Positions 4,684-26,781 of a stretch of 64,000 nt of DNA are shown piece by piece (the first letter of the stretch is position 1; the number at the start of each line of letters is the position of its first letter). The position numbers and the translations under genes are program-made. The notes below the pieces were generated by a model. The model was not told the DNA's origin. It searched no databases and was given only the letters and a program-made list of their open reading frames with translations. Source of the stretch: Opitutaceae bacterium. GTDB lineage: Bacteria > Verrucomicrobiota > Verrucomicrobiia > Opitutales > Opitutaceae. The stretch lies in the NCBI GenBank assembly GCA_015075305.1, contig JABTUS010000004.1, positions 364,679 to 428,678 on the forward strand. Direction: 5' to 3'.

Positions 4684-6174
4684 CTAGCGGCGGCGTGTCC
4701 AAAAGACAATCAGGCCCAGCAGTGCAGCGGCACCGGGGACGCCCAGAAGCAGGCTGTAGCGAAGCCGGGAAAGCTCGTTTTGGCTGAGCGAAAGCTGCAG
4801 GCGCGTTATGGGTTGCGCGGGAACGTTGAGCTGGGCGTCGCGGTCGACGCACCAGTTGATCGCGTTGAGCAGCACGGTCAGATTCCCCTGGGCCTCAATG
4901 CGATCATTGGCAATGAAATCGGCGCTTCCAAAAACCACGATTCTTCCCCCCCTGACACTGAACGGAAGATTCGATTCCTTCGGGGGAGTGACGCGCTCCG
5001 AGGACGATGCGACCACAACCGGACCGGGAATATCCACGCCGGGATCATACTTCGGCGCCATGTGCAGTCGGTAGCTCCGTTCGCCCCAGGCGGTGCCTGC
5101 GGTCTGGATCAGAGGCAGCACCTGAAGCCCGGCATCGGGGCGGCGCGCGGGATCGGGGCGGGCGGGCCGCGCGGTTCCGAAACGCACGGGCAGGCCATTG
5201 GAATGCAGGGACGCGGTGATTGGGCTGTCCTTGTTCAGACTGCGCATGATCAGATCGCCCTCCTCATTCTGGCCATCGGGCCCGTTGTCGAAGATCCTCG
5301 CATCATCCACAAGCAGGCCCCATTCGTCGAGGAGGAGATCCAGCCCGTGATTCGCGCCAGGTCCGAGCAGCAGGATCAGGCGCCCCGCCTCTGTGAGCAT
5401 CCAGGTCCGCAGCAGATTCACCTCGGGTGCGCCGTACCGCGCGATGGGCCCCGGAATGATGACAAGCGCGTCCTTGGGAATCTCCCTGATCTGCGCCAGA
5501 TCCATGCCCTCGAGGTCGAAGTTGCGGAGCCTCAGGCTGTCGCGAAGAACGGAGAGTCCCCGGCTGCGCTCGACATCGTCCGGATGCATCTCGCCGTGAC
5601 CGAGGAGAAACACGATCTTCTTCCGCTCGGGATTGGCCACGCTGAGTATGGCCGCGGTCAATGCCTGTTCGGCCTGAAACGCCGTCTTTTTCCTGTTCTC
5701 GATCCTGTAAAGCTCCTCCAGGCCGACGAGGCGCCGCCGGTCGCCGCTTCGCACGAGCACTGAATTGGGTCCGACCTCCAGTTGCTCAGCGTCGCGCCGG
5801 CGCTGATAGACATCGAGGAACTTCACGGTTATGCGCCCGTCATGGGCGCGGGCTGCGTCGACGTTGCCCTCGGTTTGATAGACGTATTCCTTCAGGATTC
5901 CAGCCAGGTCGCGCGCGGCCTGGGCAATCTCCCCATTTTCGTCGTCCTCCGAAAGGGTGACGATGATTTCGACAGGGGCGCGCAGGCTGGTGAGGTATGA
6001 AATGGTTTCCGGCGAGAGGGAGTGCGTGCGAAAACGGGTCAGATCATAGCGCCGGAAGTAGTGCGGGGCGACATAGTTCAGTCCGGCAAATAGTGTGGTG
6101 AAGAGCACGGCCTGAAGCACCAGGTTGGTGAGGCGCATCCAGCGGGCGGCACGAAAACTGTCGGCAAAACTCAT
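4684..6174 (-). CDS. GldG-like ABC transporter auxiliary protein
   Basis: This 496-residue protein has an N-terminal membrane helix (about residues 14-36), a large extracytoplasmic domain of the GldG/ABC_transp_aux type and a C-terminal helix ending in WTRRR. Typical features are the early phrase LTRFRTHSLSPETISYL and the region KIVFLLGHGEMHPDD. I chose the ATG at 6174. A TTG at 6183 overlaps the upstream stop and would add three residues. GldG works with the GldF permease in Flavobacterium gliding, but related operons are common in non-gliding bacteria, so gliding should not be inferred. It is preceded by the permease gene with a 5 bp gap and followed by DUF4340. Confidence 0.82.
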   Translation of the reverse strand: MSFADSFRAARWMRLTNLVLQAVLFTTLFAGLNYVAPHYFRRYDLTRFRTHSLSPETISYLTSLRAPVEIIVTLSEDDENGEIAQAARDLAGILKEYVYQTEGNVDAARAHDGRITVKFLDVYQRRRDAEQLEVGPNSVLVRSGDRRRLVGLEELYRIENRKKTAFQAEQALTAAILSVANPERKKIVFLLGHGEMHPDDVERSRGLSVLRDSLRLRNFDLEGMDLAQIREIPKDALVIIPGPIARYGAPEVNLLRTWMLTEAGRLILLLGPGANHGLDLLLDEWGLLVDDARIFDNGPDGQNEEGDLIMRSLNKDSPITASLHSNGLPVRFGTARPARPDPARRPDAGLQVLPLIQTAGTAWGERSYRLHMAPKYDPGVDIPGPVVVASSSERVTPPKESNLPFSVRGGRIVVFGSADFIANDRIEAQGNLTVLLNAINWCVDRDAQLNVPAQPITRLQLSLSQNELSRLRYSLLLGVPGAAALLGLIVFWTRRR

Positions 6175-23194: not shown

Positions 23195-24388
23195 GTGACG
23201 ACTGTCCGTTCGCATCTTCACGAACTGGGTTTTCCGCCCGCGCGCCGCGCGGTTCCCGGAGAGGTGTTTCTGCCTCCGCCGTTCGGAGGCGGCGCCGATC
23301 TGCTGATGATTGCCGGCGAGCACTCCGGAGACGAACATGCGGCGCGATTGATTCGCTCCCTTGGGGTTTCGTCTCCCGGGCTGAGGATCGCCGCACTGGG
23401 CGGGCCGGAGATGGCCGATGCGGGGGCCCAGTTGCTTCACGATCTCACGGCGTCTTCGGTCGTCGGGCTCGTGGAGGTGCTGAAAAACTATTCCTTCTTC
23501 AGGCGCCTGTTCGATGCGACGCTGGCGTGGATAACGGAGCACCAACCCCGGGCGGTCCTTTTTGTCGACTATCCCGGCTTCAATCTCAGGCTCGCGGCGG
23601 CCTTGCGCGAACGCGGCATCAGCGTGAAGGGCGGCGGGCGGGTCAGGACGCTTTTCTACATCTCTCCGCAGATTTGGGCTTGGAAGGCGAAACGACGGTT
23701 CACGATGGCCCGGGACCTGGATGCGCTCGCGGTGATATTTCCATTTGAGGTGAAATGCTATGCGGACACCTCGCTTCCGGTCGCGTTTGTGGGTCATCCC
23801 TTCCTCGAACCGGACCACCGGGCTTCGGTCAGCTATGGGAAGAATGGCCCGATACTGCTGCTTCCCGGGAGTCGCCGGCAGGCGGTCTCGCGGATCTTCC
23901 CCGTGCTGCTTGCCGGGTACCGCGCTTATCGGAAGCGGCCTGCGGTTGTTGTGCACCCAAGCGAGCTGATCGCTGACATTGTGCGAAGCACGCCGCTGCC
24001 GCAGGAGATCTCGCTGGTGGAGGCGGGGAGTCCGGTGGCGGCGTCTGCCGTGCTGACATCCAGCGGAACGATGTCCCTGCAGTGCGCACTTGCTGGGATT
24101 CCGGGGGCGATCGCCTATCGCGCGAACCCACTCACCTACGTGATGGGGAAAATGCTGCTTCAGGTGAAGTACCTTGGGATCGCCAATCTCCTCCTTGGGG
24201 AGCCCATGTATCCCGAATACATTCAGGGCGCCGCGAGAAGCGATGTGCTTGCGAGGGAATTGATGTCCGCGTGTGAGGATCCGCAGCGCCGAGCAGATAC
24301 CCAGGAACAGGCGGCCGCGTTGAGGAAAATCCTGACGCACCCGGCTGGAATCACCGCACCGGGCTGGGTGTTGAAACATCTTGGGTAG
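23195..24388 (+). CDS. lpxB: Lipid-A-disaccharide synthase
   Basis: LpxB condenses lipid X with UDP-diacylglucosamine to form the lipid A disaccharide. The 397-residue protein contains LLMIAGEHSGDEHAARLI (the usual AGExSGD N-terminal motif), VLFVDYPGFNLRLA, FYISPQIWAWKAKR and LLLPGSRRQ, all diagnostic of LpxB. It has a 35-residue N-terminal extension before AGEHSGD. The consensus ribosome-binding site in front of the GTG at 23195 argues that the extension is real. The upstream neighbours (Lol genes and oxidoreductase) place it in an outer-membrane biogenesis cluster. Confidence 0.93.
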   Translation: MTTVRSHLHELGFPPARRAVPGEVFLPPPFGGGADLLMIAGEHSGDEHAARLIRSLGVSSPGLRIAALGGPEMADAGAQLLHDLTASSVVGLVEVLKNYSFFRRLFDATLAWITEHQPRAVLFVDYPGFNLRLAAALRERGISVKGGGRVRTLFYISPQIWAWKAKRRFTMARDLDALAVIFPFEVKCYADTSLPVAFVGHPFLEPDHRASVSYGKNGPILLLPGSRRQAVSRIFPVLLAGYRAYRKRPAVVVHPSELIADIVRSTPLPQEISLVEAGSPVAASAVLTSSGTMSLQCALAGIPGAIAYRANPLTYVMGKMLLQVKYLGIANLLLGEPMYPEYIQGAARSDVLARELMSACEDPQRRADTQEQAAALRKILTHPAGITAPGWVLKHLG

Positions 24389-24587
24389 GACGAGTGTCGG
24401 ATCATCCTGCCGTATGACCAACCTGTCGCGCCCGTTCTCCACGGAAGCCCGTGAACCCTGGAGATTCCTGAATTGCCCGCGGGATCCTCATGTGAATCCG
24501 GGTGGCCGCGCGACGTCGCGGCAGCCGCACCAATCTTCACTTGAAATCATTGAGCCTGTTCGTGGTGGCATGGAAGGATCGCCACTG

Positions 24588-25667
24588 ATGAATCCCGTCT
24601 TGCGCTTGATTTCACTTCTGCTGCTGGCAATCCTGGCGCCATCGCTGAACGCCGCTTCCCCGGAAGCTGGGAGAAAGCTGGTCATTGGGACGCATGAGGC
24701 GCCTCCGTTTGCAATGAAGTCTGGCGACGGCAGGTGGAGCGGCCTCAGCATTGAGCTGTGGCAGGAGGTGGCGGCGAAACTCGGCCTCGACTACGAATGG
24801 CGGGAGCTGGAGGACCCCGAGGCGCTGGTGGGTGAAGTGGAGGCCGGCAGGGTCGACGCCTCCGTGGCGGCGATCACAGTGACGGCGGAGCGCGCGGAGA
24901 AAGTCGATTTCACCCAGCCGTATTTCAATGCCGGTCTGGGCATTGTCGTGCCTGCCAAGCGTGAGAGCGGCTGGCTCGGGACGGCGCGCGCATTCCTCTC
25001 GCTGAGTTTCCTGAAGGTTGTCGGTGCTCTGACGCTGGTGCTGCTCGGGGCCGGATTTGGCGTCTGGATTTTTGAGCGTCGCCGAAACTCGGGAGACTTT
25101 GGGGGAACGGCCGCGCAGGGGCTGGGCTCCGCCTTCTGGTGGGCCGCCGTGACGATGACGACCGTGGGTTACGGCGACAAGGCCCCGCGAACGCTTGGCG
25201 GCCGCTTGATCGCGCTCGTCTGGATGTTTACGAGCGTGATCATCATCTCGACATTCACGGCGCAGATCACGTCGTCGCTGACCCTGAACCGGCTTTCCAG
25301 CGCAGTGCACGGTCCGGCCGATCTGCCGCGCATCGTTGTGGCGACGGTCGGGGAGTCGGCGGCGAACGAGTACCTCAACGAAAACCACGTGCGCACGGTT
25401 GACGCGAGCAGTGTCGAGCGCATGCTTGCCGCGATTTCGGAGGGAACCGCCCAGGCCGGCGTCTATGATGCGCCCATCCTGCAGTATCTGCTGCTCAGCC
25501 ATCCCTCGCTGCAATTGCTCCCAGGAACGTTCGAACATCGCGGTTATGCGATCGCGCTGCCACAGCAGAGTCCCTTGCGGAAGCGCATCGATATCGCCTT
25601 GCTTGAAGTGATACAGGGCGCGGCATGGAAGGCGCGTTTGAAGCGGACGCTTGGCACGCCGCTGTGA
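24588..25667 (+). CDS. Bacterial ionotropic glutamate receptor-like potassium channel (GluR0 type)
   Basis: The 359-residue protein combines a solute-binding domain with a pore. A signal peptide covers about residues 1-23. Binding lobe 1 is at about 28-130, with GTHEAPPFAM and the ligand-arginine region ITVTAERAEKVDFTQPYF. A first membrane helix lies at 141-163, then a pore loop with the potassium selectivity filter TTVGYGD at 191-197, and a second helix at 206-232. Lobe 2 at about 240-350 contains AGVYDAPILQYLL. This split order is that of cyanobacterial GluR0. I chose the ATG at 24588 because a GGAAGG site precedes it by 10 bp and a signal peptide follows. The ligand is probably an amino acid, but this is not provable. 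Confidence 0.88.
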   Translation: MNPVLRLISLLLLAILAPSLNAASPEAGRKLVIGTHEAPPFAMKSGDGRWSGLSIELWQEVAAKLGLDYEWRELEDPEALVGEVEAGRVDASVAAITVTAERAEKVDFTQPYFNAGLGIVVPAKRESGWLGTARAFLSLSFLKVVGALTLVLLGAGFGVWIFERRRNSGDFGGTAAQGLGSAFWWAAVTMTTVGYGDKAPRTLGGRLIALVWMFTSVIIISTFTAQITSSLTLNRLSSAVHGPADLPRIVVATVGESAANEYLNENHVRTVDASSVERMLAAISEGTAQAGVYDAPILQYLLLSHPSLQLLPGTFEHRGYAIALPQQSPLRKRIDIALLEVIQGAAWKARLKRTLGTPL

Positions 25668-25734: not shown

Positions 25735-26781
25735 TCAAGTCAGGAACCATCCCGCGAGCACAGCGGCCAGGATCAGGCGATAGACAGCAAAAAGGGCGAG
25801 GCCATGGCGGGCCAGGTAGCGCACGAGAAAACGCACGGCGAGCGCGGAGGATGCTGTTGCAACAGCGGTGCCCAGGACGAGCGGTGGCCAGCCAAAGACC
25901 TCGACCATGGCGGGACCGGCCTGAAAACCCTTGTAGACGGCTGCACCTGCAAGCGTAGGAAGGCCCACCAGGAAACTGAATTCGGCGGCCCGCGCCGGGG
26001 TGAGTCCGCAGAAGTATCCACCCACCATTGTGACCATTGAACGGCTCGTGCCCGGCCAGAGCGCCAGGCATTGCATCAGGCCGATGCCGAGGGCCTCAAG
26101 GCTGGTGAGATCGTGAGGCTCCTTTCGGCTGTCTGTGGCGTGTGCGGACGAGCGGCGCCAGCGTTCGGCGAAAAACATCAGGACCGCACCGCTGATCAAC
26201 GCCGCCACAACGGCGCCGATGGAAAAAAGGTGCCGGTCGATCCAACTTCCGAGATAGAAACCCGCGGCGGCCACGGGCGCGAACGCGAGGATCACATTGC
26301 GAAGCAGGCGGATGCCCGGGCCATTCCGCCCGAGCATGCCGAACAGCATGCCGAGGATTTTTTCCCAATAGAGCAGAACCACCGCAGCGATCGCTCCGAC
26401 CTGAATCACAACGATGAAAGTGTCGGCGGCGAGCTTCTGGGTCAGAGGCTCCCCCGATGGGTTTTTCGACGAAGGACGCTTGTACCATCGAATCCCGCCG
26501 CTGGCGTCCCTCAGAGGCTCCTGCCCCTCAAGTCCAAGGCAGTGGTTGGCGATGATGAGATGTCCCGTCGATGAGATGGGGAGAAATTCGGTCATGCCTT
26601 CCACCAGGCCCAAAATCACGGCATCGCGGGCGCGGAGATGCGTGTCCTTGGGCGCGGCCAAGGGGGAGGCGGCTCGCTCCATGGAATCCGTGGGAATGAC
26701 GGGGATCACCGGCTCGGGGCCCTGCGCCCAGATTGACACACCTAGGACACAGGAAACGAGGGCGGCTGGGAGAATGCGCAC
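25735..26781 (-). CDS. uppP: Undecaprenyl-diphosphatase (UppP/BacA type)
   Basis: UppP dephosphorylates undecaprenyl diphosphate so the lipid carrier can be reused for peptidoglycan and surface glycans. The catalytic motifs EGMTEFLPISSTGH (residues 61-74) and GTSRSMVT are intact and about eight helices are predicted. At 348 residues it is about 75 longer than E. coli UppP. The excess comes from an N-terminal signal-peptide-like segment (MRILPAALVSCVLGVSIWA, start GTG at 26781) plus a proline-rich linker, and from an insert of about 35 residues after the first motif. An internal ATG at 26682 would remove the extension. Confidence 0.92.
   Translation of the reverse strand: MRILPAALVSCVLGVSIWAQGPEPVIPVIPTDSMERAASPLAAPKDTHLRARDAVILGLVEGMTEFLPISSTGHLIIANHCLGLEGQEPLRDASGGIRWYKRPSSKNPSGEPLTQKLAADTFIVVIQVGAIAAVVLLYWEKILGMLFGMLGRNGPGIRLLRNVILAFAPVAAAGFYLGSWIDRHLFSIGAVVAALISGAVLMFFAERWRRSSAHATDSRKEPHDLTSLEALGIGLMQCLALWPGTSRSMVTMVGGYFCGLTPARAAEFSFLVGLPTLAGAAVYKGFQAGPAMVEVFGWPPLVLGTAVATASSALAVRFLVRYLARHGLALFAVYRLILAAVLAGWFLT

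Follow-up and report, generated by a model that had tools for sequence, protein, structure and literature searches.

Gene organisation at the locus

We analysed a stretch of 64,000 nucleotides of contig JABTUS010000004.1 from an Opitutaceae bacterium (hereafter the window). All coordinates are positions in this window, and E values come from profile or sequence searches. The window carries an intact gene for a GluR0-type channel, whose features are collected in Table 1. The gene is flanked by lpxB and uppP, as the preliminary description had stated and as the matches to PF02684 and PF02673 confirm. It lies 199 bases from lpxB, and uppP is on the opposite strand. The promoter scan at the channel gene showed no promoter-like site, and the terminator scan returned one terminator-like site, inside the channel gene, which is within shuffle expectation and uninformative.

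Table 1. Features of the channel gene and its two neighbours (positions in the window)
Feature	Position	Strand	Basis
lpxB, left neighbour, outside the system	23195..24388	+	PF02684, 2.5e-66
Ribosome-binding-like GGAAGGA	24572..24578	+	ends 9 nt 5' of the ATG; spotted by eye
GluR0-type channel gene	24588..25667	+	intact frame, ATG at 24588, stop ends at 25667, 359 aa; domains and predicted structure
Signal-peptide-like N-terminus, residues 1-23	24588..24656	+	hydrophobic peak 4-22, then LNAAS; putative cleavage site
S1 binding lobe, residues ~30-122	24675..24953	+	Pfam SBP_bac_3 / Lig_chan-Glu_bd, model
Arg102, predicted contact of the ligand alpha-carboxylate	24891..24893	+	aligns with Arg of NpGluR0 (2pyy); role as given in the available text of PMC2950845
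First transmembrane helix, residues 139-163	25002..25076	+	model, hydrophobicity
Pore helix, residues 175-190	25110..25157	+	model
Potassium selectivity filter TVGYGD, residues 192-197	25161..25178	+	sequence, Ion_trans_2 match
Second transmembrane helix, residues 203-234, with gate-like FTAQITSSLT	25194..25289	+	model, hydrophobicity, alignment to YTASLTSILT of AtGLR3.4
S2 binding lobe, residues ~242-356	25311..25655	+	Pfam, model, structural superposition
Asp294, predicted contact of the ligand alpha-amino group	25467..25469	+	aligns with Asp of NpGluR0; role as given in the available text of PMC2950845
uppP/bacA, right neighbour, outside the system	25735..26781	-	PF02673, 6.1e-68

Domain architecture and predicted structure

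The domain content of the protein was established with Pfam. The best stretch of the SBP_bac_3 match (1.5e-24) covers residues 31-348 and thus runs across the pore, while Lig_chan-Glu_bd (6.3e-13) is found at residues 31-122, Lig_chan (3.1e-15) at 150-246, Ion_trans_2 (3.5e-14) at 149-231, and Ion_trans (4.2e-9) at 148-231. All these matches are above the cut-offs, including those of Lig_chan, Ion_trans_2, and SBP_bac_3, the profiles that the preliminary description had proposed for a search. In NCBIfam no match passed its threshold; those below it were mostly to proteins that bind amino acids, with two potassium channels besides. The hydrophobic segments of the protein peak at residues 4-22, 144-162, and 207-225. 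In the host genome (97.6% complete), Lig_chan and Ion_trans_2 are each matched by the channel gene only (E <= 0.001). A solute-binding protein of an ABC transporter was ruled out, as a pore interrupts the binding domain and the gene adjoins lpxB and uppP rather than a permease.

The AlphaFold2 monomer model was built with an alignment of 40 rows (A3), composed of the Opitutaceae channel and 39 of the best 80 relatives described below. It has a mean pLDDT of 91.1 and a pTM of 0.76 and starts with an N-terminal helix; it further comprises a binding domain of two lobes and the helices 139-163, 175-190, and 203-234, which flank the filter loop (residues 192-197) as had been claimed. Taken together, the open reading frame, the Pfam matches, and the model bear out the layout first proposed for this gene, i.e., a binding domain split by a transmembrane helix, the TTVGYGD loop, and a second helix.

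To place the fold, the model was compared with known structures using VIA-align, in which rows within 1 Z of each other are ties. The top match is the core of the Nostoc punctiforme GluR0 (2pyy; Z 29.7, 1.6 Å over 210 residues), followed by the core of the Synechocystis GluR0 (1ii5; Z 29.0). In the latter superposition both lobes fit as one domain (1.8 Å over 216 residues), with no failure to close. The entry 2pyy, a glutamate complex, is also the best sequence match in the PDB (4.2e-28), before Arabidopsis GLR3.4 (1.7e-24) and AMPA receptors. It is thus the best match in both sequence and structure, with aligned Arg and Asp residues, and its aligned core is 31% identical to that of the Opitutaceae protein. 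The solved chain comprises just the core, and this comparison therefore does not extend to the pore. The Synechocystis protein (slr1257) has the same architecture and a potassium pore, as described in the available text of PMC13099474, but it belongs to another phylum and is 25% identical over the aligned core, to which the comparison is again confined.

The 50 Foldseek rows shown were all chains of AMPA or kainate receptors, aligned over approximately the whole protein. The whole-length superposition on these receptors was poor (TMq 0.50-0.58, rmsd 6.9-14.2 Å, for a modelled monomer), and the orientation of the domains may differ from theirs. The Opitutaceae channel has in common with eukaryotic iGluRs and plant GLRs the binding fold, the pore module, and the SYTA-type gate region; unlike these proteins, it has no N-terminal domain and no fourth helix, and it carries a potassium filter. 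A eukaryotic-type iGluR was ruled out given a length of 359 residues with a signal-like stretch, two transmembrane helices, and this filter.

Conservation of the binding residues, the filter, and the gate

The arginine and the aspartate that the preliminary description had placed at about 102 and 294 are exactly residues 102 and 294, and both align with the corresponding residues of 2pyy. Among the 40 rows of A3, R102 is kept in 39, and D294 and TVGYGD in all; the count for the filter is inflated because one of the patterns used to find the loci was VTMTTVGY. We also aligned the channel with 29 relatives of the same phylum (A1, 30 rows; a truncated match is excluded, as are four second matches that have no locus). 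There, R102 is kept in 22 rows, D294 in 24, and a filter of the form [VI]G[YF]G in 23, the three occurring together in 15. In the alignment to AtGLR3.4, STFTAQITSSLT at the end of the second helix is matched to SSYTASLTSILT, and SYTAxLxxx is given as the iGluR gate motif in the available text of PMC11479355. The residues [FY]TA at 223-225 are found in 27/40 rows of A3 and 16/30 of A1. Hence, judging from the alignments, diverged forms exist in the wider family and the Opitutaceae protein is a standard form.

Some of these diverged forms can be described further. Eight verrucomicrobial relatives in A1 (L032-L037, L039, L043) keep a GYG-type filter (TTGYGD in L033) and lack the arginine of the binding lobe; they may therefore sense something other than an alpha-amino acid. 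Another six (L040, L041, L042, L044, L046, L048) have the same architecture with a non-potassium pore, e.g., VGGADN, and resemble by eye the Group 2 of Ger et al.

Prokaryotic channels of this type have been classified before. Group 1 of Ger et al. (2010) consists of 12 bacterial channels with a potassium filter, and its members share the order S1-helix-P-helix-S2, the Ion_trans_2-type filter, and the conserved Arg and Asp, according to the available text of PMC2950845. The Opitutaceae protein has the half-domains flanking two transmembrane helices and a P loop, the filter, the Arg and Asp, and a predicted GluR0-like core, and it fits this group. Relative to the published listing, what differs is that it is a member from the Opitutaceae: the main text of PMC2950845 has no term with Verrucomicrob- or Opitut-, and its table gives accessions rather than species. 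We found no literature joining a bacterial glutamate receptor or ligand-gated potassium channel with Verrucomicrobia. The gene is thus a further member of an already known channel class. The earlier remark on how few bacterial members have been characterised is reasonable, with the qualification that the class was already catalogued in 2010 (PMC2950845) and the physiology of GluR0 was addressed in 2026 (PMC13099474).

Distribution and acquisition of the gene

To study the distribution of the gene, we searched for full-length copies at increasing taxonomic distance. In the genus, one genome out of ten has it (E <= 1e-40), namely that of the host; two of the nine genomes without it are less than 90% complete. 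Full-length relatives are present in 13 of 250 genomes of the family (E <= 1e-40), in 68 of 385 genomes of the class (E <= 1e-45, completeness of 85 or more), and in 30 of 387 genomes of the phylum (E <= 1e-25). The congeners G001 and G004 showed weaker partial matches, restricted to the S1 side and resembling ordinary binding proteins. Among named genomes, at least 594 stretches matched the search pattern and at least 554 encode some relative (E <= 1e-3), plain potassium channels possibly among them. We kept the best 80 of these at least 554 relatives, each of which matches the query from residue 31 or before to residue 344 or beyond. Going by their record titles, these 80 belong to Verrucomicrobiota, Pseudomonadota, Bacteroidota, Planctomycetota, Gemmatimonadota, Myxococcota, and others.

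We built a tree of 79 rows with the Opitutaceae channel, 24 other genome loci, two loci from putative viral contigs, and 52 of the best 80 relatives (near relatives were thinned by hand). A quick method was used, and 22 of the 76 inner branches are open. The Opitutaceae channel falls in a set of five rows (99) with three rows of the same family and one of the same class, other rows of the same order are placed elsewhere, and the Chlorobium relative L117 stands at an open fork.

The site of the gene was compared with ten regions of the same family, scanned by tblastn with ten proteins of the window (E <= 1e-5). In the congeners G007 and G008, which keep the order lysS, lolE, lolD, gfo/idh, lpxB, uppP, trpD, glmM, trpF, the tblastn edges of lpxB and uppP leave a gap of 81 and 85 bases, respectively, without a channel gene. 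The other eight regions are uninformative on this gap because lpxB is present and uppP is unmatched within the region. The simplest reading, and the most likely one, is that the gene was gained by transfer at the gap between lpxB and uppP, since it is absent from nine congeners and the gap is empty in G007 and G008. The GC3 of the channel gene (0.775) is slightly above that of nine neighbours (0.713-0.750), with no clear foreign composition, and we found no repeats around the gene that resemble element ends or bracket it. As GC3 is barely higher and element-end repeats were not seen, the argument for transfer is drawn from the distribution and the empty site. Descent with many losses in other lineages is possible, and fits an AU test in which a single clade of 12 chosen rows, comprising the channel's group and the order (L002 and L029 left out), was not rejected (p 0.235).

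The preliminary description had linked the channel to the surrounding envelope genes. Its position between lpxB and uppP in the host genome is what favours the idea that it works as a part of this neighbourhood, e.g., in the sensing of envelope stress. We surveyed 92 loci of relatives by tblastn with ten proteins of the window (E <= 1e-8) and found lpxB near the channel gene in none of them, while a single locus (L140) showed a weak match resembling uppP at a distance of about 4 kb. These loci are approximately 3 to 20 kb long, such that the short ones could miss a distant lpxB; two of them (L049 and L130) overlap on one contig, and the later 7 and 54 regions are outside the survey. Together with the empty gap of G007 and G008, the opposite strand of uppP, and the 199 bases up to lpxB, this leaves a link to the envelope genes extremely improbable, and the claim of a role tied to them is not upheld. 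If the gene was gained by transfer, as is probable, its neighbours say nothing about the role of the channel. The lpxB/uppP setting carries no functional signal, and the position looks accidental.

Relatives were also searched on mobile elements. The collection of named phages gave no match to the channel. On two putative viral contigs of IMG/VR (264 kb and 40 kb) there are genes for full-length GluR0-type proteins (L180, 5001-6014; L179, match at 5001-5951), which a second scan of putative viral contigs returned as the sole full-length relatives. They are 26-28% identical to the Opitutaceae channel and 43% to each other, and both contain TMTTVGYGD together with the Arg of S1 and the Asp of S2. 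Upstream of both, adjacent in L180 and at about 3 kb in L179, lies an ORF of a Ser-rich secreted type with YGYMDP, and two neighbours of L180 match HNH endonucleases in PHROGs. Among plasmids, 21 records were matched. Three, from Paracoccus pantotrophus, are glnH matches with 27% query cover, and the other 18 cover at least 75%. The relative on a Kovacikia minuta plasmid has, by eye, a pore that is not of the potassium type. Two Rhizobium tumorigenes plasmids (NZ_CP117262.1 and NZ_CP117256.1; 756 and 834 kb) carry a 44% identical relative annotated only as a substrate-binding-domain protein.

Proposed working and ligand

Very probably, the gene encodes an amino-acid-gated potassium channel of the inner membrane, of GluR0 type (Group 1 of Ger et al.), that was probably transferred into the gap between lpxB and uppP. 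The domains, the predicted structure, and the key residues back the initial identification as a GluR0-like ligand-gated potassium channel, with gating and selectivity as predicted properties. The product would be one subunit of the channel. Its signal-like start and first helix would place both lobes in the periplasm, as hydrophobicity and charges suggest: the N-terminus is hydrophobic and signal-like, and the loops expected in the cytoplasm have three cationic residues in 164-182 and three in 198-207. The available text of PMC13099474 places both termini of GluR0 outside. Four subunits would make the pore, and, judging from the filter sequence and by analogy with GluR0, the filter would enter from the cytoplasmic side and pass potassium. 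Arg102 and Asp294 would hold an alpha-amino acid, most likely glutamate or similar. As in GluR0 and iGluRs, closure of the lobes on the ligand would pull the second helix, and the pore would open.

One might instead consider the protein a decayed or non-conducting relic, a channel-like binding protein without gating. Such decay would agree with the patchy distribution and with one relative (L198, G535:C3:158753-159364), possibly a decaying copy, which has an internal TAG in a genome that is 69% complete. The Opitutaceae gene, however, has an intact frame, a complete filter, binding residues, and gate region, and a confident model, and we consider a relic very unlikely.

The nature of the ligand is a closer question. 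A GluR0-type channel for another amino acid (glutamine, serine, arginine, alanine, or others), serving as a sensor of nutrients or cell-wall turnover, is a serious possibility, if somewhat short of an even chance. In VIA-align, glutamine-binding proteins (Z 27.1-28.9) come near GluR0 and arginine-binding proteins somewhat lower (Z 25.6-26.1); since the former are level, or almost level, with GluR0, the fold by itself does not single out a ligand. The best NCBIfam matches, all below the cut-offs, are to Lys/Arg/Orn- and Gln-binding proteins. Arg102 and Asp294, by the roles given in the available text of PMC2950845, account only for the recognition of the alpha-amino-acid backbone, and the available text of PMC11479355 describes plant GLRs as nondiscriminatory in their ligand profile, like binding proteins, GluR0, and AvGluR1. 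On the other side, the nearest relative of known structure by sequence is the Nostoc GluR0 in complex with glutamate (2pyy), and glutamate is bound by GluR0, as stated in the available text of PMC13099474.

Concerning its use, a GluR0-type channel that responds to glutamate or a similar amino acid would probably serve to adjust potassium, turgor, or membrane potential quickly once amino acids are present in the periplasm. A role of the GluR0 kind in the control of turgor or membrane potential is likely and is our best guess, by analogy. The available text of PMC13099474 (2026) reports that GluR0 lets potassium-uptake-deficient E. coli grow at low potassium and that cells without GluR0 shrink faster after a KCl shock. 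Against a role in turgor, it also reports that deletion of gluR0 improved growth on high KCl rather than impairing it.

MscS-type genes near relatives

We clustered the neighbours of the relatives in 86 of 99 loci, those where the ORF caller found the channel. Genes of MscS type were the most recurrent family, within 4 kb in 10 of the 86 loci, an association noticed post hoc. For a recount, we built an HMM from hits in the same loci and applied it to 98 of them (L130, a copy of the contig of L049, was omitted): MscS-type genes were found within 3 kb in 12 loci and at 3-8 kb in 4 (p 0.006). Removing the near-copies L090 and L205 gave 10 against 4 (p 0.022), and restricting the count to named contigs, without L090, gave 8 against 3 (p 0.039). 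In a second set of 53 verrucomicrobial loci (without L207, a copy of the contig of L084), there were two near, both from one genus, and none far (p 0.16). The association of MscS-type and GluR0-type genes is thus suggestive, a lead and not a result, given the modest, post hoc statistics and the weak second set.

Same-strand pairs occur, for instance, in L115 (Zhongshania aquimaris, 9 bp), L091 (214 bp), L088 (253 bp), L204 (546 bp), and L205 (771 bp). The loci L238 and L241 also have an MscS-type gene close to the GluR0-type gene. Pfam MS_channel_2nd was matched by all eight MscS-type proteins submitted, one of which (L126) is from the far group. The MscS-type proteins of L115, L091, and L126 are long, with a best match to MscK below the NCBIfam cut-off. 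No MscS match was found within the 64-kb window.

These gene pairs, recurring in unrelated bacteria, might be the trace of a turgor relay with two channels, in which channels of MscS or MscK type would release glutamate, the GluR0-type channel would sense it in the periplasm, and the resulting potassium flow would reset turgor or membrane potential. The Opitutaceae channel would then be a member without a linked MscS gene. In its available text, PMC13099474 cites papers on MscS-type glutamate efflux and suggests that effluxed glutamate may activate GluR0; we found there no linkage of MscS and GluR0 genes. We consider this relay unlikely.

Significance

With this gene, the bacterial channels regarded as similar to the ancestor of neuronal glutamate receptors include a member from the Opitutaceae. 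The very patchy spread of the gene fits transfer. Being the sole match to Lig_chan and to Ion_trans_2 in the genome, it would make a clean target for a knock-out, provided that the organism is cultivable. For such an experiment, the suggestive proximity of MscS-type genes in other lineages supplies a specific hypothesis, in line with the effect of GluR0 on shrinkage after potassium shock that the available text of PMC13099474 describes.
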